Shown piece after piece: positions 10,484 through 32,226 of a stretch of DNA of 64,000 bases. The translations under genes and the position numbers were made by a program. The DNA is taken from IMG/VR virus record IMGVR_UViG_3300036768_001863, positions 62,001 to 126,000 of that record; one strand, 5' to 3'. The stretch is from a virus. Positions within the stretch are counted from its first letter, which is position 1. Each line of letters begins with the position of its first letter. Under the pieces are notes generated by a model. It saw only the letters and a list, made by a program, of their open reading frames with translations. It made no database searches and was not told where the DNA came from.

Positions 10484-13400
10484 TTACCAGCCAAAGGTCT
10501 CGCGGAACTGGCGTCTCCAGTGCAGGGGATTGAGCGCCGGCAGCGTTCTGCCGCCCGTGCCTGGAATGACCGCATTGCCTGTCAAATAGTCATCCCAGCC
10601 GGCCGCGGGACGCGAAAGAACGTCAACGATAAATTCAGTAGCATTGACAGCTCGGCGGAGGCCCTTGGTGTCCTTGGTGCCCTTCGCGTTCTCTTCAGCT
10701 AGCGCGCCAGCTAGAGCGTCCCTGACCAAGGTGGCCTCTTCCAGCATCTTCCCTCCCGTGAGCGGGTTCAGCGCTTCCTTGCGCTCCTCGTGACTGAACG
10801 GGTTGATCATCTTGTGCCCCATCGCCATGTAAGTGAGGGACTGGGTGGGCGAAAGTTTGGAACTTTCTATGACAAGCTGGGCAGGCGTCTTGGTCTTGGC
10901 AATTTCCACATCGCGGATGAATTTCTCTTCCTGTTGGCTCAAACTTTCTCCTCTGGCCTTCTTGGCCTTGAGCCTCTCTGCTTCGGGGATGTCCTTTTCA
11001 TGCAGTTGCTTCATCACGATCTTCTCGGCCTCCGTGGCAATGCCTTCCGCCTGCGCTGACATCGTCGTGCCGGCCGTGTGGATGTCCGCGACCGTCTTGG
11101 TAATGTTCTTAATCAGGTTCATGCTGCCTTCTGGGTTGTTGCTGTCCCGCTCAACGCGCGTGATCCCCTTGAACAGCCGGTGGAGCGAGTCGGCGACGAC
11201 GTTGCCCAGGGGGCCGTAATCCTTCGCACGCTCGTCTTCACTCAGCTGCAGTGCCGGCGTGAACGCGAAGGGGTCCACCGCGTTTCCACTCGCCAGCTCG
11301 CCTCGCCGGAGCCTGTCAGCCTGGTGTTTCCGGATGAGATTGCCAACGGCCGCCTGCGCCTCGAAGTGCTTGCCGATGTTCGACTCGGACGTCAGCTTGC
11401 TCTTGGCGGCGCCGTCGTCTGCCTGATCTTCGGACAGTGCCCGGTACAGGTCTTTGAAAAGGTTGTAACCCTCCACGCCCAGCTGGGCCCCTCCTTCCAG
11501 CATGATACGGCCGGTGTTGACGTGGTTGGAGCGAATGCCAAGTGCCGTGAGCAAGTTCATGCCCGGCTGCTGCCGCCACTTGTACAAGTCGAACAGGTCG
11601 GCCGTTCCCTGGATGGCCTTCTGGTTCTCGCTGCGGAACTTTCCCTCGGACGAGAGCAGCCGGTCCCAGCCGCCCTCTTGCCAGTCCTCCAGAATGTTGC
11701 TTCCGGCTTCGCCCAGGCCAGCGATAATAGCCGCAGGATTGACGACATATTTGCCTAGCCAGCCGGCCACGTTGAGCATCTTCGTGCCGCCGGACGTCAG
11801 TCCTCCCGCCGCGTTGAGGAGCCGAGCCGTAGTTCTTTCGCCCAGCAGGCGTTTCGCCACGTTGCTGGACGCTAGCCAATTCAGGGCCGTGCCGGTGCCT
11901 TGCATTCCACTGCCGGAAATCGAGGACAGCGCCTGCACGCCGGAAAACGGCAAGGACGCCAGGCTGACATAATTGTGCCACTTGAGCTGATTGTCGTCTT
12001 TCTTGCCTGCTGCCTCTGCATTATTGCTATTGTTTACGGCGGCGTCGCTATTGTTTACGACAGCATCTTCATGGCCACGGCCCAGGTCGAAGGCCAAGTA
12101 GGCCGGCGGCACAGCATACTGGTGGGGCGAGTGGGACGATTGGGAATACGGGTGGGGCAAGTGGGGCGATTGGGAGAAATCGTAGCTGAAGGTCCGCGGG
12201 CCGGTGACGTAGTCACCGTAGTCAGGCTGCTGCTGGCTGTTCTCGCCGGGACGTCCCGTCCCAGGCAGGTATCCTGGCGGCACCGGTCTGCCCTGTCCCT
12301 GCTGGCCTGGTCCAAAGGGCTGGTACTGGTACTGGCCGCGCACGTAGGGGCTCCGGCTGGTCAGGACATGGATCGCGTTCGGGTCCAGCAGGGAGCCGAA
12401 GCGGATGGCAGAGCCGACCAGGCCGCCGAAGCCAGAGTTGGGATCGTTCGGGTTGCCGCCGCCGCGGACAAACATGGCGGCCTGACGCGGATCGTCGTGC
12501 TGCCACATCATGGGTCTGCCCCGCGTGTACTCCCCCTGGTGCGGCGCGTACTGGTAGGGCTGGTACATGGTGGCGGGAGTGCGCACGACGCCGCGGAACG
12601 GGTCTGGATTCCGGACAGAGGTTGGGCGGGTGGCCCCGGCGGTATGGGAGTTCCCTGCTGGCTGTGCCGCCGGCTTCGCCCCGCCGGAAGGATTCGCTCC
12701 GCCAGAGGCCGCCACCGGCTTGCTGCTGTCCTTGTTGTCGTCGGCGGCGGACTTGCCGAAGAACTGCGCCTCCGCCTGCCGCAGCAGGGCGTCCGCTTCC
12801 TGCCGCTGCGCTTCCTGGTCCCAGGACGACTTGTACCAGCCGCGGAAGATGCGGGACAGCATGCTGCCGCCCTCGTCGCTGCCGGCAGCTGCCGGAGGAG
12901 GTAAGTCGAGCGCCAGGCCGTCCGTGGCTACTAGCCGCGGTGCCGTCTTTCGCCGCGCCCCTCCCCGGGCGCTTTCCTCCATGCCGTCGGGAACGGTCCC
13001 CGGCTCCGGCTGACGTACCGGTCCGACCAGGCCGAAGTCCGAGGCCCTGGCCAGACCCGGCACGAAGCTGGTGCCGGACTCGTCCCAGCCGCGCCCCCGG
13101 TGGACGGCCTCCAGCAGGCCACCCTTGATGCCGGAGCCGTACATGCGCGCCAGGACGTCCGGGTCGTGCTGGAGAGAGTACATGCCGCGGATCATCTCGC
13201 CCTGGAACGGCGGCGGCTCGTCATGGACGACTACCCGCCGGATGCCGAACTGCTGAAGTTCCCGGATGACGCTGGGACGGACCCGGGTGCCGATGGTGTA
13301 GTGCAGCACCGGCTTCTCCAGGTACTTGCCGACCGCGCGGCGCACGTCCAGCTCCTGGTGGCCGGCGCGGGGCTGGTAGTTGTATTCCAGCGTGGCGTAG

Positions 13401-15370
13401 GGCACCACGTCGTCCGGCAGGTTCCCGCCGAACTCGTCCGTCAGGCGGACGTGGTTGATAAGGCCGCGGGCCAGGATTTCCACGTTGCGGCGGTTGACCT
13501 TCAGCCCGGCCGACCGCATGGCGTCCGTGTAAGCCTGGACAAAGTAGCGGCGCCCCTCGCCGATGCCCTTGTGCTGCACGATCAGGTGTGGCTGCGGGAT
13601 ACCGTCACTGATGACGTCACCGGCCTCGACCGTGTCGCCAGGACGGACCCGCAGGTTGAAGCCGGCGCCGACGTAGTGCCGGGTGCCGTTGATCCAGACA
13701 AACTTGCCTCCGGCCGGAGCGTCCTCGATGCGCTCCACCGTGCCATCCTCGGTCGCGTGCGCTGCTCCGCCGCGGAACACCTTGGGCACCTGGATCAGCT
13801 GGTTAATGTACTGGAAACCGCTCACGGCCTTCTCACGTCCGGCCACGCCACCGCTGTGCTTGGCCGAAAGCTGCGCCTGCGACAGCGGCTCCGACAGGGC
13901 CTGGGCGGCGGTGAGGCCAACCTGCTCGCCGCGGCCAGGCAGAACGCCGCGTTCACGCACACCAACGTCCCGTGCGTAAACACCACCATCAGGACTGCCG
14001 CCCACCACCGGACTTCGCACAAGAATGCGAGCATGGCCTCTCCGCCGGATGTCCTTGAGAATCTTTGGCGTCAGCACCGTGTTCTTCCGGTACGGCCCCA
14101 CGTCCTGAGCCAGCAGGGCGCCCTCGTTGTCCGGGTCGTCCACGTCCACGGGAAGTCCGCGCGGCGTCGGGTCGTCCCGCGGGTCTTCCTCGTCCACTAC
14201 CACCAGGCGGTGCGAGACCTGGTTGAGCTGCTTGCTGTTGGACACGACCATGCCGTTGGCCAGCACGAACAGGTGGTCCGGGTGGTCCACTTCGATGTCA
14301 TAGGTCGGCCGCCAGCCGACTTCTTCCCGCCGCACCAGGCGGCACAGCAGGACGTGCCTGTCCACCGGCCGCCGCGGCTCCTCTCCGTACCCGACCCCGG
14401 CCGGGACAAGGGCCGGCTGCCGCGGCCTCGCCGCCACCAGGCGGAGGCCGGCAGCTGCCACCTGACGCAGCGGCAGCAGGAGGTAGGGACGTCGTCCTCC
14501 CGGCGGCGCTGCCAGGACACGGTGGTCCTCTGTCGCCTCGATGGTGATGGCGGCCCTGCCGGCGCGGAAGACGTACCGCCAGACCCGGCGGAGACCGTGG
14601 ACAAACAGGGCCCGGACCCGCGTGGGGAACGTCCGTCCCCGCCGGTCGGCACCGAGGACAAGGTCGCCGGGACGCAGCTGCTCGATGGGGACGGAAGTCC
14701 CTTCCGGCCGGCACACCTGCGTTCCTTCCGCCAGGCACAGGAAACCGGCGTCCTGCGTGGAAAACTTGGTCGCCATGACGCCCTTGCGCGCCCCGTAGGT
14801 GCCTGCCCAGTATTCGACTGGCCGGTAGCCCTCGCTGTAGGACGACAGGATCGGCAGAGGCAGCACGTCGTCGCGGTGGTCGGCGAAGAGCAGGCCGGTG
14901 CCGCGCAGCTCCGCCAGGTTCATGGCGTTGCCGCGCGAACCGGACAGCACCTGGAAGGCCAGTGGGTTTTCCTCCCGCAGCGATTCCTGGTAGACCTCGT
15001 CTGGAATCTTCTCGGCCGCGCGGCCCACGGTCAGGACCAGCAGGTCGTTCCGCTGCCGGTCGGTCAGCCGGTCGTCGTCAAGGATCTTCTTGACCTTGGA
15101 CCACAGTTCCCGTTGCTTCCGACGGGCAATCTCGGACTTGGCCATGTGCCGCAGGCCGAAGGAGAAGCCGCCCGTCTCCGACGCGGCCTGGCGGCCGATG
15201 TCCGCCAGGTGCTTGCTAACGTCGCGGTATCGCTCCGTATGCTTCCGCGCCAGCTGGCGCAGCAACTCCGCCATGCCCTTCTTGTCCAGGACACGCTGGT
15301 AGTCGCGCAGGTCTTCTGGCAACGTCTCGTTGACCAGGAGCTGCCCCATGCTGGTGCGTAGAACTGGCAT
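10484..15370 (-). CDS. rpoC: RNA polymerase beta' C-terminal part with intein, fused to a long virion-like extension
   Basis: 1628 residues from the ATG at 15370 (TGACCATG, just after the previous stop). Residues 1-211 match beta' (LLVNETLPEDLRDYQRVLDK, GFSFGLRHM, GYRPVEYWAGTYGARKGVMA). A 167-residue intein interrupts after TQDAGFL; beta' resumes with SKQLNQVSHRLVVVDE and contains VGLTAAQALSEPLSQAQLSA, the counterpart of the conserved GE.VG..AAQS.GEP block, then continues to about residue 795. About 830 further residues follow without a stop: a Pro/Gln/Tyr/His-rich linker, a Gly/Ala hydrophobic region (LLNAAGGLTSGGTKMLNVAG) and helical segments. That extension resembles nearby virion proteins, not any bacterial beta'. 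A virion-attached polymerase is inference. Confidence 0.85.
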   Translation of the reverse strand: MPVLRTSMGQLLVNETLPEDLRDYQRVLDKKGMAELLRQLARKHTERYRDVSKHLADIGRQAASETGGFSFGLRHMAKSEIARRKQRELWSKVKKILDDDRLTDRQRNDLLVLTVGRAAEKIPDEVYQESLREENPLAFQVLSGSRGNAMNLAELRGTGLLFADHRDDVLPLPILSSYSEGYRPVEYWAGTYGARKGVMATKFSTQDAGFLCLAEGTQVCRPEGTSVPIEQLRPGDLVLGADRRGRTFPTRVRALFVHGLRRVWRYVFRAGRAAITIEATEDHRVLAAPPGGRRPYLLLPLRQVAAAGLRLVAARPRQPALVPAGVGYGEEPRRPVDRHVLLCRLVRREEVGWRPTYDIEVDHPDHLFVLANGMVVSNSKQLNQVSHRLVVVDEEDPRDDPTPRGLPVDVDDPDNEGALLAQDVGPYRKNTVLTPKILKDIRRRGHARILVRSPVVGGSPDGGVYARDVGVRERGVLPGRGEQVGLTAAQALSEPLSQAQLSAKHSGGVAGREKAVSGFQYINQLIQVPKVFRGGAAHATEDGTVERIEDAPAGGKFVWINGTRHYVGAGFNLRVRPGDTVEAGDVISDGIPQPHLIVQHKGIGEGRRYFVQAYTDAMRSAGLKVNRRNVEILARGLINHVRLTDEFGGNLPDDVVPYATLEYNYQPRAGHQELDVRRAVGKYLEKPVLHYTIGTRVRPSVIRELQQFGIRRVVVHDEPPPFQGEMIRGMYSLQHDPDVLARMYGSGIKGGLLEAVHRGRGWDESGTSFVPGLARASDFGLVGPVRQPEPGTVPDGMEESARGGARRKTAPRLVATDGLALDLPPPAAAGSDEGGSMLSRIFRGWYKSSWDQEAQRQEADALLRQAEAQFFGKSAADDNKDSSKPVAASGGANPSGGAKPAAQPAGNSHTAGATRPTSVRNPDPFRGVVRTPATMYQPYQYAPHQGEYTRGRPMMWQHDDPRQAAMFVRGGGNPNDPNSGFGGLVGSAIRFGSLLDPNAIHVLTSRSPYVRGQYQYQPFGPGQQGQGRPVPPGYLPGTGRPGENSQQQPDYGDYVTGPRTFSYDFSQSPHLPHPYSQSSHSPHQYAVPPAYLAFDLGRGHEDAVVNNSDAAVNNSNNAEAAGKKDDNQLKWHNYVSLASLPFSGVQALSSISGSGMQGTGTALNWLASSNVAKRLLGERTTARLLNAAGGLTSGGTKMLNVAGWLGKYVVNPAAIIAGLGEAGSNILEDWQEGGWDRLLSSEGKFRSENQKAIQGTADLFDLYKWRQQPGMNLLTALGIRSNHVNTGRIMLEGGAQLGVEGYNLFKDLYRALSEDQADDGAAKSKLTSESNIGKHFEAQAAVGNLIRKHQADRLRRGELASGNAVDPFAFTPALQLSEDERAKDYGPLGNVVADSLHRLFKGITRVERDSNNPEGSMNLIKNITKTVADIHTAGTTMSAQAEGIATEAEKIVMKQLHEKDIPEAERLKAKKARGESLSQQEEKFIRDVEIAKTKTPAQLVIESSKLSPTQSLTYMAMGHKMINPFSHEERKEALNPLTGGKMLEEATLVRDALAGALAEENAKGTKDTKGLRRAVNATEFIVDVLSRPAAGWDDYLTGNAVIPGTGGRTLPALNPLHWRRQFRETFGW
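14237..14737 (-). other. Mini-intein in RNA polymerase beta'
   Basis: 167 residues from the Cys of CLAEGTQVCRPEGTSV to the Asn of FVLANGMVVSN, followed by Ser+1. Splicing block A (CLAEGT), block B (ATEDHRVL) and block F (YDIEVDHPDHLFVLANG) are present and no homing-endonuclease insert is visible. The exteins rejoin as TQDAGFL-SKQLNQVSHRL, equivalent to the bacterial beta' segment after GARKGL..T....GYL. The residue before the terminal Asn is Ser, not the usual His. Confidence 0.88.
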
Positions 15371-15372
15371 GG

Positions 15373-15792
15373 TCACTTCACCCACACCCTCTGGCCGTCA
15401 GCCAGGCGCAGGCAGCGCGACCGAGGGGAGAACAACCAGATGGTGATGCGCGGCTGGTTTGCCATGCATACCTCGCGGCAACGCCATACATGGTGCTCGT
15501 CCTGGCTGCTGGACACCAGCAACAGGACCACAGGCAGGCGTCGGGAGCGGGCGCCGTAATAGAGGGACTTACCCACTGCCTCGGCCCAGTCGGGTGCCCA
15601 GGCCACGGCGACGGCATGGTGAGGGGTCAGAAGGTCGATGCGCGTGCCGTCGTAGTTGCTTGCCCCGGCCTGGGCCGGCAGGCCGCTGGAGGTCAGGCTG
15701 GCTGCCAGGCATCCAGCCCAGTCCTCCTCTTCGGGAACGTTGCCGCCGGTCAGCAGGCGGCGCAGCCACGACCGGAAGTGCTGGAGCATCAC
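15373..15792 (-). CDS. PD-(D/E)XK-nuclease-like small protein, catalytic acid apparently lost
   Basis: 139 residues, ending 2 nt before the beta' C-terminal gene. Residues 50-92 (TRIDLLTPHHAVAVAWAPDW, then AEAVGKSLYYGARSRRLPVV) follow the pattern of small nuclease-like proteins that read R-D-hh-T...A.EVdwa.kW.EA.GQ.l.Ya. Here the usual acidic residue in 'EV(D/E)' is Ala (AVAVAWA). The fold assignment is pattern recognition without alignment, so it is tentative. If right, the protein is probably not an active nuclease. Confidence 0.5.
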   Translation of the reverse strand: MMLQHFRSWLRRLLTGGNVPEEEDWAGCLAASLTSSGLPAQAGASNYDGTRIDLLTPHHAVAVAWAPDWAEAVGKSLYYGARSRRLPVVLLLVSSSQDEHHVWRCREVCMANQPRITIWLFSPRSRCLRLADGQRVWVK

Positions 15793-16676: not shown

Positions 16677-16958
16677 TCACTCGCGTGGACGGGGTCCAGC
16701 GATCAGCTGGGCTCCCGGGGGTGGGCCCGACAAACGGATGCGGTCCACCACGGTCGTCTGGGAGACGCCGAGGCGGCGCAGCAGGCGGTTAAAGTCCTCC
16801 ATGCCCGCCATGCTGGCCGAGTAGGCGCCGTCCGGGCCGTAGTGAGCGGCGGCGAAGATCGGCGTGCCGTCGTCCGTCTCCAGGATGACCTGGCTGACCG
16901 GAAGGACCAGTACCTGCCCGCGGCCAATGCCGTCGAGCGGGATGAGCTTGGCGATCAT
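16677..16958 (-). CDS. Small hypothetical protein
   Basis: 93 residues. Its ATG overlaps the TGA of the preceding gene (ATGA), implying translational coupling. The first half is beta-like (KLIPLDGIGRGQVLVLPVSQ, VILETDDGTPIFAAAHYG) and the second is a short helix. No family recognised. Confidence 0.55.
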   Translation of the reverse strand: MIAKLIPLDGIGRGQVLVLPVSQVILETDDGTPIFAAAHYGPDGAYSASMAGMEDFNRLLRRLGVSQTTVVDRIRLSGPPPGAQLIAGPRPRE

Positions 16959-17785
16959 GCAGCGCCGCCCTTTGCCGCCCGTGCCGCCTGGCGGAAACGG
17001 GCAATGGCAGCCGCCCGGTCCTGCACGGCGCTGAAGCCACTTGTGTCAAAGGATGAGCCGTCAAAGGCGTGGCCGTTGCCGCGGTAGGCCCGGCGGTCAT
17101 GCGCCGGCTTCTCTGCCCCCGGCTTGCCCGCCGGCTGTATGCCCTCCAGGGGAGGAATGGGAGGGATCGCGCCCTCCTCGCCCCCTGCGCCGTCAGCAGA
17201 CGGGTCGATGCCAGGCATGGGACCGCCCGTGGTCGAGGCGTGGGCCAGGTTCGTGAGGTCTTGCTGGGTGGCGACCATCTCCGAGGCAGGGATCTTGATG
17301 CCGAGCTGGTCGGCGATGCGTGCCTGGATCTTCAGGATCGACAGCAGCACGGCGTTGGTGTCGATCTTGGGCTTGATGACGCCGCCCGTGTTGCCACCGT
17401 TGCCACCGTTGCCACCGTTGCCACCGTTGCCACCAGAACCGTTGCTCGACTGCATCTGCTGGATCTGCTGCTGGAGCTGACGTACCTGGTCCTGCAAGGC
17501 AGCCACGTCCGCGCTGTTGTCCGGCGACGGCGGTGGCGACGGCATGCCGCCCGCTGCCATCATGCTGGGGTCTGCCGGCATGCCGCCCGCTGCCATCATG
17601 CTGGGGTCTGCCGGCATGCCGCCCGCTGCCATCATGCTAGGGTCTGCCGGCATGCCGCCCGCTGCCATCATGCTGGGGTCGCCGGCGGGCACGAAGGCAC
17701 GCTTGTGGAACCCGCCCAGGTTCCGCCGTGCCATCTTGAGGACTTCAAAATTGACCAGATGGTCGTCGCGCGTGGGGGCGCCCAT
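16955..17785 (-). CDS. Low-complexity repeat protein with Gly-Gly-Asn linker
   Basis: 276 residues from the ATG at 17785 (GGAGC upstream). After a basic N-terminus it has four tandem copies of the 12-residue unit DPSMMAAGGMPA, then a short coiled-coil-like helix (DVAALQDQVRQLQQQIQQMQ). A run of GGN triplets follows, then a helical segment (AVLLSILKIQARIADQLGIK) and a Pro/Gly-rich acidic tail. This resembles flexible virion or internal-head proteins. Function unknown. The downstream 93-residue gene starts inside its stop. Confidence 0.6.
   Translation of the reverse strand: MGAPTRDDHLVNFEVLKMARRNLGGFHKRAFVPAGDPSMMAAGGMPADPSMMAAGGMPADPSMMAAGGMPADPSMMAAGGMPSPPPSPDNSADVAALQDQVRQLQQQIQQMQSSNGSGGNGGNGGNGGNGGNTGGVIKPKIDTNAVLLSILKIQARIADQLGIKIPASEMVATQQDLTNLAHASTTGGPMPGIDPSADGAGGEEGAIPPIPPLEGIQPAGKPGAEKPAHDRRAYRGNGHAFDGSSFDTSGFSAVQDRAAAIARFRQAARAAKGGAA
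17543..17686 (-). repeat. Four tandem 36-bp repeats inside a CDS
   Basis: Nearly identical 36-bp units on the + strand (atgccgcccgctgccatcat...), each encoding DPSMMAAGGMPA. The unit nearest the 3' side is slightly diverged. A second in-frame repeat of gccaccgtt units (GGN codons) lies at about 17393-17431. Confidence 0.92.
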
Positions 17786-17877
17786 GTGAAAGCTCCATTT
17801 TTCGTGGTCACGTACCGTGTGGCCCAGTCTACCGTACCTTGCCGGGCGCACACCAGTCCGCTTCGTCCGCCGCCCCC

Positions 17878-18378
17878 CTACGACGCCCGCCGCGGCCGCC
17901 GGAGACGGCGCCACAGCCGGCGGAGCGGCCGGACGTAGTAGTGGCCGACGAAGCCGCGGACCAGGGGCCAGCCGAGAGCCCGGCGGACGTCGTTTTCCCA
18001 GGCCGTGATCGGGCACTCGGCCCGGCTGCACACGGACCAGATGATGGCGAAGCAGGCAGGAAAGGCCAGATACCACGGGGCGTAGAACGGGGCGACGCAG
18101 AAGGCGGCCGCGTTCGCGCCCACCAGGGCCGAGTGGAACAGCCAGATCGCGGCCCAGCGGAATATGAGCCACGTCCGCTGCCACTCCCGCTCCCGGACGG
18201 CCCCCACCTCCTCCGCTGCCCGGCGCAGCATGGCCAGCGACTGCCGGAGCGAGTCGTTCGTGCTGGTCTGGCCCACGGCCTCGTCCAGGGCGGTAAAGAG
18301 ACAGCGCAGGTCCGCGTCCGAAAGGTACTCCCGTGCCAGGGCCAGGATGTTGCTGGCCTCCTCGGTCGTTGTTGGCAT
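17878..18378 (-). CDS. Small membrane protein, unknown
   Basis: 166 residues. The ATG at 18378 is 1 nt past the TGA of the beta/beta' gene, with GGGAGG covering that stop, so the two are coupled. An N-terminal soluble helical part (about 1-65) is followed by two hydrophobic segments at about 70-115 (IFRWAAIWLFHSALVGANAA and PFYAPWYLAFPACFAIIW). The C-terminus is very basic (PLRRLWRRLRRPRRAS), which suggests two membrane passes with the tail in the cytoplasm. No family recognised. Confidence 0.55.
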   Translation of the reverse strand: MPTTTEEASNILALAREYLSDADLRCLFTALDEAVGQTSTNDSLRQSLAMLRRAAEEVGAVREREWQRTWLIFRWAAIWLFHSALVGANAAAFCVAPFYAPWYLAFPACFAIIWSVCSRAECPITAWENDVRRALGWPLVRGFVGHYYVRPLRRLWRRLRRPRRAS

Positions 18379-18379
18379 G

Positions 18380-20134
18380 TCAACCTCCCAGGATCTCGAC
18401 AGGGGTGTCCACTGTGATTTCACCGCGCCGATAGGCCCGGATGGCATCCTGGCGGGAACGGAACACGCGCGGGCGCTTCCTTGACACGGAGCGCCGCCGG
18501 GTGGACTCGTACAGCCCGCCCAGGTACTCCTGCCCCGGCATGTGTACCGGCGACTGGAAGTCCGCCGGCGAGAACAGGGACCGGCTGGGCAGCAGCCGGT
18601 CGTATGCCTCCTTCACCGCCTCCGGCGACGTCGGCACGTGGAACTGCATGGCGTCGCCGTCGAAGTCGGCGTTGAACCCCTTGGTCACGAGGGGGCTCAG
18701 GTGGATGGTGTTTCCGCTTACCAGCCGGGGGCGAAAGGCCAGGATGCCGAACTTGTGCAGCACGGGGGCCCGGTTGACGTACACGGGGCGCTCTTCCATT
18801 TCCTCTTGCATGATGGAGCGGGCCAGCGGCGTCCGCTCCCGGACGTGGCGCAGGGCCTCGCGGATCGGCAGGCCGCGCCGCCGGAGCCGGCGGACGATGA
18901 ACTTGCTGTAGACGTCGAACGCCTGGTTCTCCGGGATGCCGATGGAGTCCATGTCCATGTCCGGGTCCGGCGTGATGACGGCCCGGCCGACGTTGTCCAC
19001 GGTGGTGGAGAGCAGCTTGCGCTGCATCGTGCCGAACTTGGGGGATTCTCCGAAGATGCTCTTCAGGATCCCACTGACGCCCTTCTCCTGGAGCTTGGGG
19101 TGCATGGGCTCGCCGAGACCCACGACGGCCTGGAAGGCGTGGTAGACGGCCAGGCGCTCGGGGCCCGCGTTCTTCTTGCCCACCTGCTTGACCATGTCGT
19201 TGTAGTTGCGGATGGCGTCCAGCAGCTCCTTGTACAGGTAGTTGGGGTCCGATATAAGCGGGATGCCCGTGTCTCCCAGCATGGACACGGGCCGGAAGGC
19301 AGGCGGCAGCACGGGCACCCGATGCAGCACCCAGTCGCGCGGGTGCAGGCCGAGCTTCTTGGCGCTGTCCAGGTACTGCCAGCGACGGATCGCCTCGTCC
19401 CGGTGGGAAGCGCGGCCGTACCGCCACTCCGCCCGGGCCTTGTCCAGCTCCTTGTCCAGGTCCAGCTGGTCCAGCGCCTTGGCCACGGCCTGGGGTCCGC
19501 TGCCGTACCCCGGCAGAGACTCGTCTCCGGCCAGCACCGCCTCGAACTTCTTCTGCGTCAGGCCCAGGATGCGGCGGATCGGCTCCTCCATGACCGGGTT
19601 CGGCAGCGGCTCGGGCAACTCGATGGCGGCCCAGCGCCGGCCGCCGTGTCCACCCGTCAGTTTGGGGTCAAACAGGCCGCCGGGGATGGGACTCATGTTG
19701 TCGTCGAAGCGCACCAGCTCCCCGGAACGGATGATGCGGTTGCCTGCCAGCTCCTTGACGTCCTGGTCCGTCAGGGCCATGACGTTTGCCCGGTGCCCGT
19801 CCGGGACGACATTGATGCCTGCCGCCTTCAGCTGGTGGACGAACTTATCGTACACGTAGGGCACCTTGGGCTTCACCGGCGTGAAGCCCAACATGAACTG
19901 GAGCCAGAACTGTTCGTTCTTCTGTCCCCGGATGAGGCGGGCGTCCCGGAGCGTCTCCGTGGCCCCGTGGGACATCAGGGCGTTGACGTCCAGCATGGAC
20001 AGCCTCTTCGAGTTGCTGACGAGCACGCCGCAGACCGCGTACAGGTGGACGTCAGCGACCGTGATGTCGTAGACATCGGCCAGGCTGTCCCTGCCGGCAG
20101 ACGGACAGTATGGCCGGACCTCCCTGACGCGCAT
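18380..20134 (-). CDS. rpoC: Split-intein C-half + RNA polymerase beta C-terminus + beta' N-terminal part
   Basis: 584 residues, own ATG with GGAGGGCG upstream. Residues 1-41 are an intein C-terminal half (VYDITVADVHLYAV...VSN). From Ser42 the extein SKRLSMLDVNALMSHGATET is the end of beta (compare bacterial GGQRFGEMEVWALEAYGA). It runs directly into beta' (GILAFRP, VNRAPVLHKF) with the catalytic NADFDGDAMQFHVP at 488-501 holding the three Mg-binding Asp (490, 492, 494). The usual N-terminal Cys4 zinc finger of beta' is missing. The chain stops after GEITVDTPVEILGG, near where cyanobacteria split rpoC1 from rpoC2. The remaining beta' is encoded at 10484-15370. Confidence 0.9.
   Translation of the reverse strand: MRVREVRPYCPSAGRDSLADVYDITVADVHLYAVCGVLVSNSKRLSMLDVNALMSHGATETLRDARLIRGQKNEQFWLQFMLGFTPVKPKVPYVYDKFVHQLKAAGINVVPDGHRANVMALTDQDVKELAGNRIIRSGELVRFDDNMSPIPGGLFDPKLTGGHGGRRWAAIELPEPLPNPVMEEPIRRILGLTQKKFEAVLAGDESLPGYGSGPQAVAKALDQLDLDKELDKARAEWRYGRASHRDEAIRRWQYLDSAKKLGLHPRDWVLHRVPVLPPAFRPVSMLGDTGIPLISDPNYLYKELLDAIRNYNDMVKQVGKKNAGPERLAVYHAFQAVVGLGEPMHPKLQEKGVSGILKSIFGESPKFGTMQRKLLSTTVDNVGRAVITPDPDMDMDSIGIPENQAFDVYSKFIVRRLRRRGLPIREALRHVRERTPLARSIMQEEMEERPVYVNRAPVLHKFGILAFRPRLVSGNTIHLSPLVTKGFNADFDGDAMQFHVPTSPEAVKEAYDRLLPSRSLFSPADFQSPVHMPGQEYLGGLYESTRRRSVSRKRPRVFRSRQDAIRAYRRGEITVDTPVEILGG
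20012..20134 (-). other. Split intein, C-terminal half (IntC)
   Basis: 41 residues opening the gene, with block F-like YDITVADVHLYAVCGVLVSN and Ser+1. The size matches known split-intein C-halves (about 35-41 residues). Its partner is the 98-residue IntN at the end of the upstream gene. Confidence 0.88.
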
Positions 20135-20165
20135 GCTACGCCCTCCCTGGAGACCGCGCCGGACC

Positions 20166-23100
20166 CTAGCACTCCATCAGGTCGTCTCCCGCCGCCAGCT
20201 GGCACGCCAGCTTCCTGCTGCCATCTTGCAGCACGAACTCATGGTTGCGGGTGCATACCAGCGTGGCTCCGTCCGCCAGCTCGACCTCCACCAGCGTGGA
20301 CGCGGGCACCCGGTAGTGGAACCAGTCCGTGACGGCGTACCAGCCTGCCTCCTGGCCCTCCAGGCCCCGCGCGCGGACGCGCAGAGGCAGACGTCCCTCC
20401 ACCACCTGCCGGATCGTCCGCGGCCCCTGGTCCGTGTGCAACACGGTGTCGCCCAGGAAGCAGCCCATTTCCCCTCCCTTGGACGGGCTCTCGTCCAGGG
20501 AGTACGCGCCCCCGCCGCGGCCCTGGCCCTTGGAATTGCCGGACAGCATCGGCTTGCCGTTGCGACGGACATACAGCAGACCTGTCTCCATTTCCGCGCA
20601 GTAGACGATGCCGTTGTAGTCCTTGGTCCAGAAACGGCCCTCGCCCGGACCGGCCCAGGCATCGGTGCGCTCCGGCACCACGCGGCAGACCCAGGAGGGC
20701 AGGAAGTGGGAACTGGGCCCGGGCGGCCGCCGCTGCACGATGGCGCCAAGTCCCGCCCGGATGAACAGCTCCTGGAAATCGTCCGCCAGGCCCCGGGACA
20801 GGGACACGTAGCCCAGGCGCCGCCCCGCCTCGTCCCTGCCGCAGCTAGCCAGCCAGGCGGCACAGGTCCGGCGCAGCACGTCCGGCGGCTGCTCCAGCAA
20901 GTGGCGTGGCAGGCGCTTGGAGCGGGCATGCCCGCCGTACCGCCGCAGGTGTTGCGCAAGAGGACGGTGCGCCAGGACGTAACCCTTACCGGGGACGTAC
21001 TCCCACGGCAGGGCCAGACGTTGCAGCAGCTCCTCCAGCGCCGCAGCCCGCGCCGGCCCGTCGCCCGGCTTTTGCCCACGGACGAAGAAGGTGACGTCCG
21101 CGCGCCGCGGCGTCACCCGGGCATGGCCCGCGCCGGCCCACCAGCCGACCAGCTCGGCGTAGTCCCCGCAGTCCATCTCCTGGCCGCACACGAGCAGTCT
21201 GGCAGCGCAGACCTGGCCATTCTCCACTGGCCAGCCAAACTGGGGCACGCGGAAGCGGCGGCCATGCACCTCCTGCGCCGGCAGCAGGGCGCACACCGGG
21301 TCGGGACACTGGCCCAGGTCCGCGTACAGGCGGTGGTTTCCCGTGACCAGGTAGTCGAGGTCGCGGCTCGTGAAGCCGTACAGGGTGCCACGGAAGGAAG
21401 CCCGGATGAGGCGCAGCGGCCGCTCGAACACCAGCCGGCCGCCACGCACCGTGGCCAGCTCGTCGTCGCAGCGCACCTGGGGCCAGGGCACCCAGCCACG
21501 GGCAGTCAGGGCCTCCGTGGCGGCATCGAAGCACTCCGCCGTGTGGTGCAGCTTCATGAAGAAGCGGTTGCCGGTAGCGATCCCGCGGACCTTCATGTCC
21601 CTTTCCGGCCAGAAGATGTCCTCGGTGTCCTTCAGGCCGTGCCGCTCCAGCTGCCGCCGCACCCAGGCGGTCATGTCCTCCTCGCCCTCGAAATCAGTCA
21701 CCTTGATGGGGCGTCCCAGCTTCCGGGCCAGCTTGCCCAGCATGGCCTCCGCGATCTGGGCCGGGTTGACACGGGTGATGACGCCGAGCGGGTTCAGCAG
21801 GACTTCCAAAGGCTCGCCGTCCTCGCCCCGCGGCATCAGGCTGTCTGGCACAATGGCGGCGACCACGCCCTTGTCCCCGTAGCGCCCGGACATCTTGTCG
21901 CCGACCTGCATTGGCTCGACGGACTTGACCACGACGACCGGCCCGCTCTTGCTCCAGACCACGTCGGTGACGACGCCCGGCTGGTGGTGCTTCCACAGCA
22001 CGCTCTCGTCGTTGTACCCAGGCTGCTTCTTCCGGTGGACCTTGTTCTGTGCATGCTCCCGCTGCCGCGCCGCCAAGATGAGCGGGTCGCCGTACTGGAC
22101 GACCGTGCCCGGCTTGACCGTGCCGTCGTCGTTGATGGTGTCCAGCACCTTCCGCTCGAACTTCTGGGGAAAGAGGCCGATGAAATCGCGCTTGCCCAGC
22201 TTGTGTCGGTCGCTCACCTCCAGACTGTGCTGGTACATGTGCTCGGACGACATCTTCTTGGCCATGCCCTCGGAGATCACGACGGCGTCCTCGTAGTTGT
22301 ACCCCAGGTAGGGCCAGTAGGCCACGCGGGCATTGACCCCCAGGGCCATCGCGCCGTTGTTGTCCGTGTAGTTGCTCCGGGCCAAAAGCTGGCCGCGTCG
22401 GAAGTTGTCGCCTGGTCGGACCAGGGGGATCTGGTGGATGAACGTCTTGCGGTTGAATGGATAGTTGTCGTACAGCTCGATCTCTTCCTTCCGGCCATCC
22501 GCGTACTGGACCTTGATTACTCCGTCACGGACGTCGATGACCCGTCCGTCCGCACCAGCCTCCACTGCGCCAAGGTGCTTGCCGTACTCTTCCTCAAAAG
22601 ATCTCTTCCCCTTGGACTCTGGTGTGCCGGATTGTACAAGCGGAGCCTCGGCGGCGATGAGAGGAAGGGCCTGCGTAATGTAGCGGCTGCCCATCGCCAC
22701 GCGCTGTCCCTTGACCATGCTTTTAAGCGGCACCAGGTTGCCCAGAGGGCTGAACGTGTCCTCGAAATGAGGGATGACAAAGTCGATGTCTTTCTTGCGC
22801 ACATAGGACAGTTTGCCTCCCTTCATCACAGGCACGCGCTTGCTGTCCCAGCGGAGGACGTCCGGCGTGGCCACGGCCGCGTCGGCCAGGTCGCGCGGCC
22901 CCTTCCAGACCAGCTTTCCCCTCCGGTCGAGCAGCTGCACGTACAAGCTGCCGTCACTCCCCTTGCGCGCACCCCGGGCCACATGCAGGTCCACGCCTGC
23001 CCGGAAGCTGTTACCAGACCAGTGACCCGGAGTGCCGTCCCGGCGGACGTAGAGAAGTCCGCCCGGCACCGTGGCGCAGTAGACGGGGCCGTCGTAGTCC

Positions 23101-25328
23101 AGCCGGTAGTAGGACGCTGGCGATGCGCCCCATTCCTCGTCGCCAGCATAGAGGCGGACGCGGTGCCGGCGCCGCTGCCCGTCCGGCTCAGGACGCAGCA
23201 CGCTGGGGATGCCCAGCGTGAAGGCCAGCAGGACCATCTGCTTGGCCAGGGCCAGGCTGCTAGACTGGAACTGGACGAACCGGCCGTGCCGGTCCTTCCT
23301 TCCACCGGCCAGCAGCAGGACCGCGTACAGGCGGCGGCGGGACTCCAGGCTGCCGGCCAGCAGACAATCCGGCAGCCTGCGGCCGTGTGGACCGTCCAGC
23401 TCCCGGCAGAGACCGGCCAGGCGCCTGTCCTCCAACACGAAGACCTGGCCGGCCGCGTCATACTCCCAGACAAGTCCCAGGCGCGTCAGCAGGGCGGTGA
23501 GCCGCGCGTGCTGGGAACGGTACGCTTGCGGACGGCAAGACAGGCGCAGCCTGTCCGGGTTGATGACGTCTTCCTCCTGGTCAGCCGTCCCGGCCGCGGC
23601 CGTGTACCAGCAGACCAGCTCCGCCCAATCCTCCGCCGACCCGGGCCGACCCGAGGTCCACTCCTCCCAGGCACCGTATAGATCATCGCCGCGGTAGCAG
23701 GGACCGCCGCCGAGATGGAGGCGGGGCCGGCCAAAGGCTGCCGCGGCCGTCTCTTCCTGGTAAGTCCCGTCCGCCTGGCCGCGCGGCCGCACCCACAGGC
23801 GATGGTCCGGCGTGACCAGATAGCTCAGCAGCCGCGTCCGCACACCCAGCAGCTTGCCACGGTAATGGCCACAGTGCAGCTGCGTGGGCCGGTGCCACTC
23901 CACGGTGCCACCGACCAGGCAGGCCAGCTCGTCCTTCTGGGCCACTTCCGGCCACGCCTTCCAGCCGGAGCGAGTCATCACCTCGGTCCGGGCGTCGTAG
24001 CACTCCGGCGTGCGCAGCGGGTCGATGAAGCCCAGGTGCGACGGCTGCACGGAGCGGGCCTCGTCCGGAATGGAGTCGATGTTCGGGATGCCGCCCTCTC
24101 CCATGCGCGTGATCCGCGTCTGCTTGTCAAACACTTCCGCCGGGTTGATCTCCTCCAGCGCCTCTGCCAGGCCGCTGCCCAGCAAGACCTCCTCGATCTG
24201 AGGCGTCAGGGCACCGCTCGGCATCTTGTCCAGCGAGCCGGCCAGGGAGACCTTGCGGAACAGCTGCGCCAGGGTCCGGCCGTGGTCGCGGGCGATGCGC
24301 TCGGCGAACATGTCCTCGGGACCGAGGAAGACCTGGTAAGCCAGGTGGTCGCGGTCGTCCGGGTCGGTTTCCCGGCGGCTGACCTGGAGCAGCTTCTGCG
24401 TGGCCTTGAGGATGACCTCCTTGCTGAGCCGGTCATACGGCTGCCCCAGGGTGTGGCGGGTGACTTCCGGGTCCAGCTCCATCGCCTGGAACTTGGCGAC
24501 CAGCTTTTGCCGTTCGCTGCCCTCGTCCCCGTCCCGCTCGTTCTTCCGCAGCAGGCGGTCGGCCAGTTTTCGCATGGTCCCCCGGTCGGGATACTGGGCA
24601 TTGGCGGCGTACAGATCGTTGCCCCAGTAGGCCCGCACCTCCCGGTCGGTGGCCCCCATAGCTTGCAGCAGCGGCAGTAGCGGCATCTCCGCCTGGCCCA
24701 GGCGGATCTTGAACAATCCCTTTTCTGGGTCCAGGAAGTAACGGTGCGAGACGCCCTTCCCTGGCAGCACGTTGACGTGGCTTTCCAGCTCCCCGTTGTC
24801 CTTGATGCGGGTGAAGATGCCCGGCCGCAGCCGTTGCTGGTGGCTGACCGTGTACTCGTTGCCCCGGTGGATGAACGTCCCCAGGCTGGACAGATAGGGC
24901 ACGCGCGCGATGACCTGGGTGCGACGTTGTAGCTCCTTGCCAGTGGCCGAGTCCTCCAGCACCCAGGTGCCCTGCAAGCGCCGGGCCAGCGTGCCGCCCG
25001 TGAGAACGGCCTGCTTGCGCTGACGGCGAGAGAAGCGCTCCGGGTCGGCCCACTTCACGTCGGTCAGGCGCAGACGGTGCTTGCCGTCATCCAGCGGAGC
25101 AATGGACTGGGCGGCATGGAGCACGTTGTCGTAGAGGGAACGGCGCGTGGCATCGGTGTCGCCAAAGGCGCGCAATGCCGGCAGAGGTGACGGCGGAGCC
25201 GCGCCGGCGCCGGCGAGCACGGCGTCGGCCCTCGTTGGTGGCAGTAGCGACGACACGGCTTGCCCCTTCCTTGCCAAGTCACCTTCCCGTCCGCCGCTAC
25301 CGTGTCCGGCCGGACGGAGCGCGGCCAT
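20166..25328 (-). CDS. rpoB: RNA polymerase beta subunit with two inteins and a split-intein N-half
   Basis: 1720 residues, ATG behind AGGGGGAC. Exteins carry beta landmarks: GTFIHRGNEYTVSHQQRLRP, HLGFIDPLRTPE, YNYEDAVVISEGMAKKM, QVGDKMSGRYGDKGVVAAIV, EVLLNPLGVITRVNPAQI, FFMKLHHTAE. Intein 1 is residues 443-773 and intein 2 is 1266-1598. From Cys1623, after SPSKGGEMG, the last 98 residues are an intein N-half that ends the protein. Extein totals 958 residues before trans-splicing. The true beta C-terminus (MLDVNALMSHGA...) is in the next gene, 31 nt on. The 5' end overlaps the previous gene by 32 nt. No alpha or sigma subunit is seen in the window. Confidence 0.92.
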   Translation of the reverse strand: MAALRPAGHGSGGREGDLARKGQAVSSLLPPTRADAVLAGAGAAPPSPLPALRAFGDTDATRRSLYDNVLHAAQSIAPLDDGKHRLRLTDVKWADPERFSRRQRKQAVLTGGTLARRLQGTWVLEDSATGKELQRRTQVIARVPYLSSLGTFIHRGNEYTVSHQQRLRPGIFTRIKDNGELESHVNVLPGKGVSHRYFLDPEKGLFKIRLGQAEMPLLPLLQAMGATDREVRAYWGNDLYAANAQYPDRGTMRKLADRLLRKNERDGDEGSERQKLVAKFQAMELDPEVTRHTLGQPYDRLSKEVILKATQKLLQVSRRETDPDDRDHLAYQVFLGPEDMFAERIARDHGRTLAQLFRKVSLAGSLDKMPSGALTPQIEEVLLGSGLAEALEEINPAEVFDKQTRITRMGEGGIPNIDSIPDEARSVQPSHLGFIDPLRTPECYDARTEVMTRSGWKAWPEVAQKDELACLVGGTVEWHRPTQLHCGHYRGKLLGVRTRLLSYLVTPDHRLWVRPRGQADGTYQEETAAAAFGRPRLHLGGGPCYRGDDLYGAWEEWTSGRPGSAEDWAELVCWYTAAAGTADQEEDVINPDRLRLSCRPQAYRSQHARLTALLTRLGLVWEYDAAGQVFVLEDRRLAGLCRELDGPHGRRLPDCLLAGSLESRRRLYAVLLLAGGRKDRHGRFVQFQSSSLALAKQMVLLAFTLGIPSVLRPEPDGQRRRHRVRLYAGDEEWGASPASYYRLDYDGPVYCATVPGGLLYVRRDGTPGHWSGNSFRAGVDLHVARGARKGSDGSLYVQLLDRRGKLVWKGPRDLADAAVATPDVLRWDSKRVPVMKGGKLSYVRKKDIDFVIPHFEDTFSPLGNLVPLKSMVKGQRVAMGSRYITQALPLIAAEAPLVQSGTPESKGKRSFEEEYGKHLGAVEAGADGRVIDVRDGVIKVQYADGRKEEIELYDNYPFNRKTFIHQIPLVRPGDNFRRGQLLARSNYTDNNGAMALGVNARVAYWPYLGYNYEDAVVISEGMAKKMSSEHMYQHSLEVSDRHKLGKRDFIGLFPQKFERKVLDTINDDGTVKPGTVVQYGDPLILAARQREHAQNKVHRKKQPGYNDESVLWKHHQPGVVTDVVWSKSGPVVVVKSVEPMQVGDKMSGRYGDKGVVAAIVPDSLMPRGEDGEPLEVLLNPLGVITRVNPAQIAEAMLGKLARKLGRPIKVTDFEGEEDMTAWVRRQLERHGLKDTEDIFWPERDMKVRGIATGNRFFMKLHHTAECFDAATEALTARGWVPWPQVRCDDELATVRGGRLVFERPLRLIRASFRGTLYGFTSRDLDYLVTGNHRLYADLGQCPDPVCALLPAQEVHGRRFRVPQFGWPVENGQVCAARLLVCGQEMDCGDYAELVGWWAGAGHARVTPRRADVTFFVRGQKPGDGPARAAALEELLQRLALPWEYVPGKGYVLAHRPLAQHLRRYGGHARSKRLPRHLLEQPPDVLRRTCAAWLASCGRDEAGRRLGYVSLSRGLADDFQELFIRAGLGAIVQRRPPGPSSHFLPSWVCRVVPERTDAWAGPGEGRFWTKDYNGIVYCAEMETGLLYVRRNGKPMLSGNSKGQGRGGGAYSLDESPSKGGEMGCFLGDTVLHTDQGPRTIRQVVEGRLPLRVRARGLEGQEAGWYAVTDWFHYRVPASTLVEVELADGATLVCTRNHEFVLQDGSRKLACQLAAGDDLMEC
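20169..20462 (-). other. Split intein, N-terminal half (IntN)
   Basis: 98 residues from Cys1623 (CFLGDTVLHTDQGPRTIRQV) with block B CTRNHEFVLQDG, ending LAAGDDLMEC and a TAG stop. Only 31 nt with a ribosome-binding site separate this from the IntC gene. The split is natural in form, with two complete halves and no remaining endonuclease. Confidence 0.88.
20535..21533 (-). other. Intein 2 in beta, with degenerate LAGLIDADG domain
   Basis: 333 residues from CFDAATEALTARGW to MLSGN, Ser+1, between MKLHHTAE and SKGQGRGGGAYSL (bacterial MLKLNHLVDDKMHARSTG). Block B is TGNHRLYA. Its LAGLIDADG helices read LVGWWAGAGHAR and CAAWLASCGRDE, again without the usual Asp. Its C-terminal LLYVRRNGKP is nearly the same as in intein 1, so the two are probably related by duplication or transfer. 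Confidence 0.87.
23010..24002 (-). other. Intein 1 in beta, with degenerate LAGLIDADG domain
   Basis: 331 residues from CYDARTEVMTRSGW to SGN, Ser+1. It sits in the most conserved beta site, between RTPE and SFRAGVDLHVARG (bacterial IETPEGPNIGLI). Block B is TPDHRLWV. The inserted domain has two LAGLIDADG-like helices, LVCWYTAAAGTA and LYAVLLLAGG, but the acidic residues are replaced by Ala or Gly, so cleavage activity is probably lost. Confidence 0.87.
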
Positions 25329-29412: not shown

Positions 29413-32226
29413 CTACAGCTCGCAGCGGTCGCCGGTACAGGCCCAGGAGCGCACGGGGCTGGCACTGTCCTCCTGCTCGTAATGCACCAGCTTGGCCCAG
29501 TTAAGCGTGGGAAAGCTGGCCACGAACTCGTCGTACTGCGCGCGGGTGAGTTCCTCGTTGGGGGCGTAGGTGTAGCGGCCGTTGTCCTTGGGCAGGAAGC
29601 TCAGGCCGGTGATATGGTCCCAGTGTTCCTGCCGGTAGACCCAGGCGCCGACCTCCAGCCACTCGTCGGCGTCGATGTAGATGGTGGCGGACACGGAATG
29701 CTCCGCGTAGTTCTTCTTCCAGCTCAGCCAGTTCTCCAGCTGCTGCACCGCCGTCAGGTCGTCCCGCGTGATGGCCCCCGCCGGCGCCGCCTTGGGGAAG
29801 CCGAAGACCAGCAGCTCGCCCGGTGCCTCCGGGGCCGGCGCGTGCGGCACGCCACTGTCGATCAGGAAGCGGGCGATGGCGCTGTCCTTGCGCTCGCGCA
29901 CCCAGCGGACCTGGTAGGGGGCGAAGCGCGGGCTGATGCCGGCTGCGCAGTCAAAAAAGATGCTGGAATCGCCGCCTGGCTTGATGCACGTGTCCGCGGC
30001 AGACAGGGCGATGCCGAAGCGGGGCGCGTACTGGGCCTTGGTGTCATGCACCACCTGCCGGAGGGCGCGCTGCAACTCGGCCAGACCCGCCGCGCCGTGA
30101 TGCAGCAACGGGCAGTCGGCGTGGCCGGTGATGTCCACGCCTAGCAGCCGCTCCTCCTCGCAATTCTTCTTCCAGTCCGGCCGGATGTACTGGAACTGGG
30201 TGCAGGTGGACTGCATCAGTCCGAACAAGGTGGCCAGGCGGACCTTCCGCTTCAGGGAGTCCACCGTGTCGTCCGGCCGGGCGACCGCGATGCTCAGGTT
30301 GCAGAACTCATATGGCCGCAGGATGACCTCGGCGCACGGGTTCACGCCGAAGCGGGCCTTCCTGCGCCGCGCCGGCCGGTGGTTGACCGCCGCCTGCCGG
30401 TTGTAAATGCCGCGCTCGCCCGAGCGGGAATTGAGCAGGGCCAGCCACTCCCGCAAGAAGACGTCGATGGGGGGCCGTTCCTCGTAGACGGCCGAGTTGT
30501 TGGCCATCGTCAGGTACTTGCCGTCCGTCCAGTACGTCCGGTCGTTGTACCAGTCCCCCGACTTGATGTCGCGCATGCCGGCCGAGGCCAGATCGGAAAG
30601 GGACAGCGTTGCGGCCCGGCGCACGCCGCCGACCTGGACGATGCGCCCCGTGAAGCAGGCCAGACGGTGGGCGTCCGTGTCATCCAGGTAGCGACCCTGG
30701 CGGGCCAGGATGACGTTACGGCTGAACTCCATCAGCTCCAGAAACGGGCCAGGCCCCGAGGCCAGACCGCCCTTGGTACGAAGACGGCTGCCGGCCGGAC
30801 GCACGCCGCTGACGTCGAAGCGCACGTCATGGCCGTCAAACCAACGCTGGAGGGCCTCGAAGTAGGCCGTGCACCAGCCCTCCGTGCTGTCGGTCACAGC
30901 AAGGACGTCCGCCTTCTTGCCCCGCTGCTTCTTGACGCGCGGCAGCTCGCCGACGTAGTCCGACTCCACGCTGAAGCCGACCCCCGTGCCCTGCATGAGA
31001 ATGTAAAGCATCTCAGGGAACGAGAAGATGTCCGCCATCGGCTGGTAGGCGCAGTTGCCAGTAACGATGCAGCCGTCCAGGACAAAGGACTGCTCGCCTG
31101 GCACCTCCAGGCACCAGACGTCCGTGTCCTCGCCGTGGCTGCCCACTTCCAGGACGAGAGGAGGCAAGGAGGCCGCGTCCGTGCCACCGGCGTCCGCGGC
31201 AAGGGACACGGCCTCGGCCGGAGCCGGGCACAGCTTGTCTCCGGCCACGATCCACGGCAGGACGTTGCCGTCCTGGCCAAGCCAGCGGTGGTCGCGCGTG
31301 GCATGCACGACATGCCGCTCTAGCCCCCGCGCCAGCACGATGGGATAGGTCACGTCCCTGCCGTAGCAGCGCACCGTGGCCGTGCGCCAGTTCCCCATGT
31401 GGGTCAGGACGTCCACCGTGTCACCGTCAGCAAAGTCGAGAAAGGAACGCACGCCGTCCCGCGTCCAGAAGCGCGTGTCACGCCGCAGGCAGTTGTACAC
31501 GCCGACGTGGCAGCGGTCGAGAGCCGGCCCCGCCATCTGCACCACGCGCAGGGCGGGGGACACCTCCAGGCGGTACATGGCGTCCGCCAGCTCGTCCCAC
31601 TCGGCCGCCGATAGTTTGCCGGCCACCAGCGGCAGGCGCTGGAACCAGGGGATGACCCGCTCGTACACTGCCTCCCGCCACGTCTCGCGCCGGCCGTCCT
31701 GGTCGCGCCAGCGGGAGAACTTGCCCATGAACTGGTAGTATTGCAGGTCGGTCGGAAAGTGCTTCCGGTCCTCCAGGAAGCGCGCGGCAACCTCGGGCGG
31801 GATGGGGCGCAGCTCCCGCGCCCGGCGCCGCTCCTCCCGGTAGTTCTGGTACTGCTCCGCCGCCTCGAACAGGCCGGCGCCCCACAGCTGCTGGATGACC
31901 AGGCGCTGGACCTCCTCCACCCCCGGACGGGTGATGCCCTGGGCCGCCAGGTTGTTGCAGACGGCACGGGTGATCTGTTCGATCAGCGCCTGCTCCTCGC
32001 CAGCTCCCGGCACAAGGGAAGAAGGGCCACCGGCGTCCGCGCGGATGCTGTGGAAACACCGGGACAGGGCCCGGCGGATCTTGTCCGGGTCGAAGGGGAC
32101 GGCCTGGCCGTCCCGCTTCACGCACGTCCAGCCCGCGGACATTTCCTCGGGAGTGAGTGCTTTGCCGTTGCGAAGACCGGGATGGATGGCCGCTGCGCGC
32201 GCGGCCGACGAAGTGCCATGTTGCAT
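29413..32226 (-). CDS. nrdJ: Class II (adenosylcobalamin-dependent) ribonucleoside-triphosphate reductase with intein
   Basis: 937 residues, ATG behind GGGAGGAG. It reduces ribonucleotides for phage DNA synthesis. An ATP-cone-like N-terminus (about 35-130) precedes the reductase. After VYN a 146-residue intein intervenes, and the extein resumes CAYQPMADIFSFPEMLYILM, then GTGVGFSVE. The active-site block FGVNPCAEVILRPYEFCNLS (about 626-645) and a C-terminal CTGDRC redox pair are present. No NrdB partner is seen, which fits class II. It has its own -10 TATAAT about 200 nt upstream. Confidence 0.88.
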   Translation of the reverse strand: MQHGTSSAARAAAIHPGLRNGKALTPEEMSAGWTCVKRDGQAVPFDPDKIRRALSRCFHSIRADAGGPSSLVPGAGEEQALIEQITRAVCNNLAAQGITRPGVEEVQRLVIQQLWGAGLFEAAEQYQNYREERRRARELRPIPPEVAARFLEDRKHFPTDLQYYQFMGKFSRWRDQDGRRETWREAVYERVIPWFQRLPLVAGKLSAAEWDELADAMYRLEVSPALRVVQMAGPALDRCHVGVYNCLRRDTRFWTRDGVRSFLDFADGDTVDVLTHMGNWRTATVRCYGRDVTYPIVLARGLERHVVHATRDHRWLGQDGNVLPWIVAGDKLCPAPAEAVSLAADAGGTDAASLPPLVLEVGSHGEDTDVWCLEVPGEQSFVLDGCIVTGNCAYQPMADIFSFPEMLYILMQGTGVGFSVESDYVGELPRVKKQRGKKADVLAVTDSTEGWCTAYFEALQRWFDGHDVRFDVSGVRPAGSRLRTKGGLASGPGPFLELMEFSRNVILARQGRYLDDTDAHRLACFTGRIVQVGGVRRAATLSLSDLASAGMRDIKSGDWYNDRTYWTDGKYLTMANNSAVYEERPPIDVFLREWLALLNSRSGERGIYNRQAAVNHRPARRRKARFGVNPCAEVILRPYEFCNLSIAVARPDDTVDSLKRKVRLATLFGLMQSTCTQFQYIRPDWKKNCEEERLLGVDITGHADCPLLHHGAAGLAELQRALRQVVHDTKAQYAPRFGIALSAADTCIKPGGDSSIFFDCAAGISPRFAPYQVRWVRERKDSAIARFLIDSGVPHAPAPEAPGELLVFGFPKAAPAGAITRDDLTAVQQLENWLSWKKNYAEHSVSATIYIDADEWLEVGAWVYRQEHWDHITGLSFLPKDNGRYTYAPNEELTRAQYDEFVASFPTLNWAKLVHYEQEDSASPVRSWACTGDRCEL
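31054..31491 (-). other. Mini-intein in ribonucleotide reductase
   Basis: 146 residues from CLRRDTRFWTRDGVRS to CIVTGN, with Cys+1. Block B is ATRDHRWLG and block F is DVWCLEVPGEQSFVLDGC. It interrupts VYN-CAYQP, where the +1 Cys is the conserved active-site-region cysteine of the reductase. No endonuclease domain. The penultimate residue is Gly instead of His. Confidence 0.87.

Follow-up and report, generated by a model that had tools for sequence, protein, structure and literature searches.

Known hosts of split inteins include DNA polymerases, reductases, and helicases, and in Helicobacter and Wolbachia the rpoB-rpoC gene encodes RNA polymerase (RNAP) β and full β′ in one polypeptide. The cyanobacterial DnaE split inteins (Npu, Ssp) join two halves of a polymerase catalytic subunit; they comprise about 100 plus 36-41 amino acids (aa), adopt the Hint fold with the break at the endonuclease site, and carry Cys1, the TxxH motif, and the block F Asp and His, with a penultimate residue other than His. 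These features recur, the fold and the joining as predictions, in a 64,000-nucleotide stretch of viral DNA (IMG/VR record IMGVR_UViG_3300036768_001863, positions 62,001 to 126,000; hereafter the window, to which coordinates refer), assigned to a phage by its IMG/VR class and its RNAP relatives. Its β gene is interrupted by what is very probably a natural split intein that would trans-splice a chain of β and the N-terminal half of β′ (β-β′N). Unlike the DnaE elements, it resides in a viral DNA-dependent RNAP, has Ser rather than Cys at position +1, and is encoded by neighbouring genes.

Among phages, the closest described elements are the 'fractured genes' split inteins (gp41-1, NrdJ-1, IMPDH-1, TerL), found in phage or metagenomic genes of replication or nucleotide metabolism, whose halves are sometimes parted by an open reading frame (ORF), and that in PolB of jumbo phage MIJ3, with a homing endonuclease ORF in this position (PMC6892783). 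The present element differs from both in that its host gene encodes a multi-subunit RNAP and no gene separates the halves in the window. The RPB2/RPO inteins of eukaryotes and nucleocytoplasmic large DNA viruses likewise occupy conserved sites of a β homologue, near the active site or a subunit interface; those surveyed by Goodwin et al. in 2006 are, unlike that of the window, all single-gene cis inteins, and the nearest by domain, Cre RPB2-a in the anchor domain, has Cys at +1 in place of Ser (PMC1635734). The mReC phages resemble the window in being Caudovirales with β and β′ close to the cellular ones, and the main text of their description contains no mention of inteins, of splits, or, for the mReC themselves, of a β-β′ fusion (Weinheimer and Aylward 2020; PMC7481178); inteins are also unmentioned in a review of jumbo phage RNAPs (PMC7598289). 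Searches of an open-access subset of the literature, which cannot prove absence, yielded no account of an RNAP with a split intein. The element thus belongs to the known split inteins and phage 'fractured genes', and RNAP as the host system appears to be new. The whole viral transcription enzyme would hinge on a trans-splicing step, and a new split intein with Ser+1 would become available for protein ligation work.

The upstream gene encodes the β body, which contains two cis inteins, and terminates in the intein N-half (IntN); the downstream gene, on the same strand in a different reading frame, encodes the C-half (IntC), the β tail, and β′N (Table 1). IntN follows ...SPSKGGEMG and reads CFLGDTVLHT...GDDLMEC, after which comes a TAG codon. 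The IntC gene (ORF 18380-20134, minus strand) starts with an ATG at 20134, preceded in the spacer by the Shine-Dalgarno-like sequence GGGAGGG (20141-20147; GGAGG-to-ATG distance, 7 nt). Its product reads MRVREVRPY...VYDITVADVHLYAVCGVLVSN/SKRLSMLDVNALMSHGA..., where the slash marks the end of the intein (...VLVSN) and the beginning of the C-extein (SKRLSML); the first ~115 extein residues are the C-terminal part of β, followed by the N-terminal half of β′ with NADFDGD. A degenerate 53-nt pattern of this junction, [S]N/SKR...HG, matched once in the window and never in 100 shuffles, and no terminator-like or promoter-like site was matched within 19900-20600. An earlier sequence-only reading had described a β gene ending in a 98-residue intein N-half and a next gene with its own ribosome-binding site, a 41-residue C-half, the end of β, and NADFDGD; the former holds to the residue on the minus strand, and the latter is likewise borne out by the sequence. 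Its predicted product of 958 plus 543 residues, 1501 in all, is exact once the two cis inteins of β (331 and 333 aa) are excised.

Evidence for an interrupted chain comes from relatives carrying the uninterrupted gene. In most IMG/VR relatives, β and β′N form a single ORF of about 1460-1510 aa, and the continuous junction ...KGG.xG/[SA]KR..., that is, an empty site, was matched in 77 of the 83 distinct relatives; the six unmatched are two split ones, L111, L021, L122, and L109, of which L021 and L122 proved continuous on inspection by eye. The predicted spliced product aligns with the 1498-aa product of L004 at 61% identity and without a gap at the junction. A fused β-β′N gene is also present in the isolated Salmonella phage Arash (gp206, 1525 aa) and Vibrio phage D69 (1527 aa), where no intein occupies this site. 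One gene for β-β′N is therefore the rule across a large phage group. Comparison with cellular RpoB places the insertion site at ...FG/GQRFGEMEVWALEAYGA, a conserved position within the C-terminal part of β, and the C-extein follows RpoB to its C-terminus before continuing into β′. Since relatives have one gene and the site lies inside the C-terminal part of β, the link between β and β′N is genetic and ancestral, not made by the intein, which would restore the chain by attaching the β body to an already linked β tail and β′N. The earlier proposal that an intein welds β to β′ thus stands as to the joined chain and needs correction as to the link. Similarly, β′ is joined only as its N-terminal half, with NADFDGD as proposed; the C-terminal half (β′C) is encoded by a separate gene. 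Unlike in Helicobacter and Wolbachia, the chain contains β′N only and is interrupted by a split intein.

The break recurs elsewhere. A second IMG/VR contig, possibly not fully independent, is identical to the window over 20,297 bp, break included, and two diverged relatives, L003 and L005 (73% and 65% extein identity), have an IntN/IntC split at exactly the same site; the sequence-only reading had suggested looking for the break in related phages. All three copies are broken within the intein, at the point where an endonuclease is usually inserted. The halves are separated by an ORF of 637 aa in L003 and of 134 aa in L005. These ORFs overlap the IntC start (GTGA and ATGA, respectively), with a further overlap at the IntN stop in L005 (TGATG), suggesting that in both relatives the halves and the intervening ORF constitute one translationally coupled operon. 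Neither intervening ORF matched Pfam or PHROG, nor was a homologue found elsewhere in the loci; thus, unlike in MIJ3, no homing endonuclease is recognisable between the halves. The two ORFs (L003 5971-7884, L005 7479-7883) have in common an N-terminal motif, LAAKAAxLRxK, that occurs nowhere else in the searched loci.

Two further relatives have an in-frame cis intein at the same site. That of L111 (369 aa) contains a LAGLIDADG endonuclease (LAGLIDADG_2, 62 bits; Intein_splicing, 38.2 bits with a cut-off of 35.8). That of L137 has 217 aa; its linker is open in the intein frame, and the codon-position composition there fits a different ORF of 83 aa in another frame. Searches for split copies with the C-half, the N-half, and a degenerate DNA pattern returned only L003, L005, and the identical contig, the pattern also retrieving the cis-frame L137; no split copies were found in GTDB genomes. 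Hidden Markov models built from the two halves and applied to six-frame ORFs of the loci collected up to that point gave no copies beyond L111 and L023. In the latter (6669-7997), a complete intein akin to the split one occupies another site, in β′ (GGNNG/C...VSN/SRWSAV), which suggests movement between sites.

Both halves pass the NCBIfam intein cut-offs, IntN with 26.4 bits against TIGR01445 (intein_Nterm, cut-off 24.5) and IntC with 17.1 bits against TIGR01443 (intein_Cterm, cut-off 15.6), which argues against chance similarity; the IntC sequences of L003 and L005 are likewise above the curated cut-off. Five inteins were aligned, three as joined halves (window, L003, and L005) and two as cis inteins (L111 and L023); C1, T71, H74, D121, H128, and N139 are among the invariant positions and cover splicing blocks A, B, F, and G under the definitions of PMC7765530: Cys1, the TxxH of block B, VYD and H128 of block F, and the terminal Asn. 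Loss of essential splicing residues had been named as a possible objection; those of blocks A, B, and F and the terminal Asn are present in the split copies. The block F His is absent at the corresponding place in the cis allele of L137. The +1 extein residue is Ser in the window, L003, L005, L111, and L137. Searching the Protein Data Bank (PDB) with a profile built from the joined halves gave the Npu DnaE intein (2KEQ, E 2.7e-13), followed by RecA and NrdJ-1 inteins, and the 139 joined residues of the window alone reach RecA inteins (E ~5e-4). In an AlphaFold2 model of the allelic cis intein of L111, with the window halves as alignment rows, the Hint core has a pLDDT of ~90, the endonuclease portion being of low quality; Foldseek matched this model to the Npu DnaE, Synechocystis DnaE, and RecA inteins. 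Together, the uninterrupted gene, the same split found twice more, and the allelic cis inteins strongly support the split-intein reading and its 1501-residue product.

Several points weigh against this reading. The collection contains only three distinct split copies. On the tree, the window has L003 as its sister, and the unsplit L004 and then L005 join them; the nearest unsplit relative thus nests among split copies, and loss or transfer has to be assumed. Uniting the split copies in one clade lowers the log-likelihood by 8.2 units, and this topology is not rejected (p-AU 0.111). With the Pfam intein profile, IntN of the window gives a weak match (E 0.018). In block G, Ser stands in place of the penultimate His in each split copy as well as in L111, L023, and L137. 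This His is not universal among inteins; Npu DnaE also lacks it, ending in ...IASN (PDB 4LX3_B), and the Cre RPB2 intein ends in Gly-Asn (PMC1635734). Finally, the split copies share 39-54% amino acid identity in the intein halves versus 65-73% in the exteins, so the intein is less constrained than the polymerase.

This faster evolution would also be expected of a non-splicing remnant, in which the precursors keep their intein halves, dock at most non-covalently, and form a multi-chain enzyme like the phiKZ-type RNAPs. The RNAPs of jumbo phages do function with β and β′ each in several polypeptides (PMC7598289), and the break falls between the β body and the β C-terminal part. We nevertheless regard such a remnant as improbable: three diverged split copies have kept every nucleophile as well as the residues of blocks B and F, the chain is continuous in 77 of 83 relatives, and an unspliced intein would occupy a highly conserved β motif. 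Goodwin et al. argue that folding requires the removal of inteins from such buried RNAP sites (PMC1635734).

It is still less likely that the element is really a cis intein whose break in the window stems from a frameshift error in sequencing or assembly, or is overcome by programmed frameshifting. The two frames overlap for a few codons before the TAG, a one-base slip would yield a continuous intein, and the frame of L137 is continuous at the same site. This explanation is at odds with the second contig, which keeps the break without a mismatch; with L003 and L005, where entire genes part the halves, inexplicable by a one-base error; and with an IntC that has its own ATG and Shine-Dalgarno-like sequence in the window and coupled starts in the relatives. 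An error was rejected on the first two grounds, and the one-piece gene in at least 77 relatives, together with the same break in two diverged ones, also speaks against a slip. Coincidental similarity of terminal extensions of two genes, for which it might be said that each half alone is modestly above its profile cut-off, has a negligible chance of being correct and was rejected on the joint match to PDB inteins (E 1e-13) and on the extein boundaries, which are exact relative to unsplit relatives and coincide with allelic cis inteins.

Under the split-intein reading, a single transcript would be translated into both precursors, whose IntN and IntC would associate into the Hint fold. Cys1, assisted by the block B TxxH, would form a thioester to be attacked by Ser+1, and cyclisation of Asn139 would then release the intein (98 plus 41 aa) with formation of the GGEMG-SKRLS peptide bond. 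Three cis-splicing events, two in β and one in β′C, would complete maturation, and the β-β′N chain would assemble with β′C into the core enzyme. In Arash particles, gp206 is the top virion protein by spectra (128 unique peptides, 3516 spectra, full coverage; PMC10585845). By analogy, the polymerase of the window might be packaged and injected for early transcription. A rather doubtful extension of this analogy is that trans-splicing serves as a control point, the polymerase being inactive until the precursors meet and a virion-packaged enzyme being matured by splicing before or during packaging; if so, splicing would time or gate viral transcription and would not be the scar of a neutral parasite.

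The alleles at this site, comprising the empty site of at least 77 relatives, the endonuclease-bearing cis intein of L111, the reduced one of L137 with its nested ORF, the separated halves of L003 and L005, and the adjacent halves of the window, offer a rare view of how a split intein may originate. They suggest a path from an endonuclease-bearing intein through a reduced intein with an inserted gene and a split to a bare split, although its direction is not proven. Its probable source is an intein of the L111 kind, with a homing endonuclease, which was then reduced and broken by insertion of a gene.

Table 1. Position, strand, and supporting evidence of the split RNAP genes and their inteins in the window (slashes mark predicted splice junctions)
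Feature	Position	Strand	Evidence
β gene, precursor of 1720 aa	20166-25328	-	ORF; RNA_pol_Rpb2_6 E 4e-49; PRK00405 E 6e-70
Split intein N-half (IntN), 98 aa	20169-20462	-	TIGR01445 match; C1, block B TxxH
Spacer between IntN and IntC genes, 31 nt	20135-20165	-	Sequence
Split intein C-half (IntC), 41 aa, own ATG	20012-20134	-	TIGR01443 match; block F D/H; terminal Asn
C-extein, 543 aa	18383-20011	-	TIGR02386 rpoC E 7e-62; β-tail alignment to cellular RpoB
β′ C-terminal half gene (β′C, rpoC2-like)	10484-15385	-	TIGR02386 E 2.5e-50; rpoC2_cyan E 1.5e-17
Cis intein 1 in β, 331 aa, RTPE/C...GN/SFRAG	23010-24002	-	Coordinates; LAGLIDADG_3 weak, E 0.035
Cis intein 2 in β, 333 aa, HHTAE/C...GN/SKGQGRG	20535-21533	-	Coordinates
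Cis mini-intein in β′C, 167 aa, DAGFL/C...VVSN/SKQLNQ	14237-14737	-	TIGR01443 22.1 bits (cut-off 15.6)

The site of cis intein 1 in β is empty in L003, L005, and L004. Cis intein 2 had no family match in profile searches, and an insert is visible at its site in L122. Two other intein-like inserts were observed in L111 (4777-12312), one directly in the catalytic DFDGD region (DFDGDQ/QIGIVFAS...VILSN/TSNYYVP) and one at GGIP/C...GN/SMDSIPDEARS. Vibrio phage D181 has a group I intron (L134, 5536-5816; Rfam RF00028, 100.7 bits) within its fused β-β′N gene, adjoined by a homing endonuclease ORF, the insert being absent from D69; therefore, both group I introns and inteins have invaded this gene. 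The β′C protein of the window has a C-terminal extension of ~950 aa past the rpoC-matching part, with no Pfam match. Elsewhere in the window, minus-strand genes encode a Ro60-like protein with TROVE and vWA domains (54658-56343; NCBIfam RNA-binding protein Rsr, E 2e-13) and a B12-dependent (class II) ribonucleotide reductase with an N-terminal ATP-cone (29413-32226). Finally, the ORF at 16955-18184 (minus strand) contains an in-frame 36-bp tandem repeat (17540-17690) that encodes PADPSMMAAGGM repeats.

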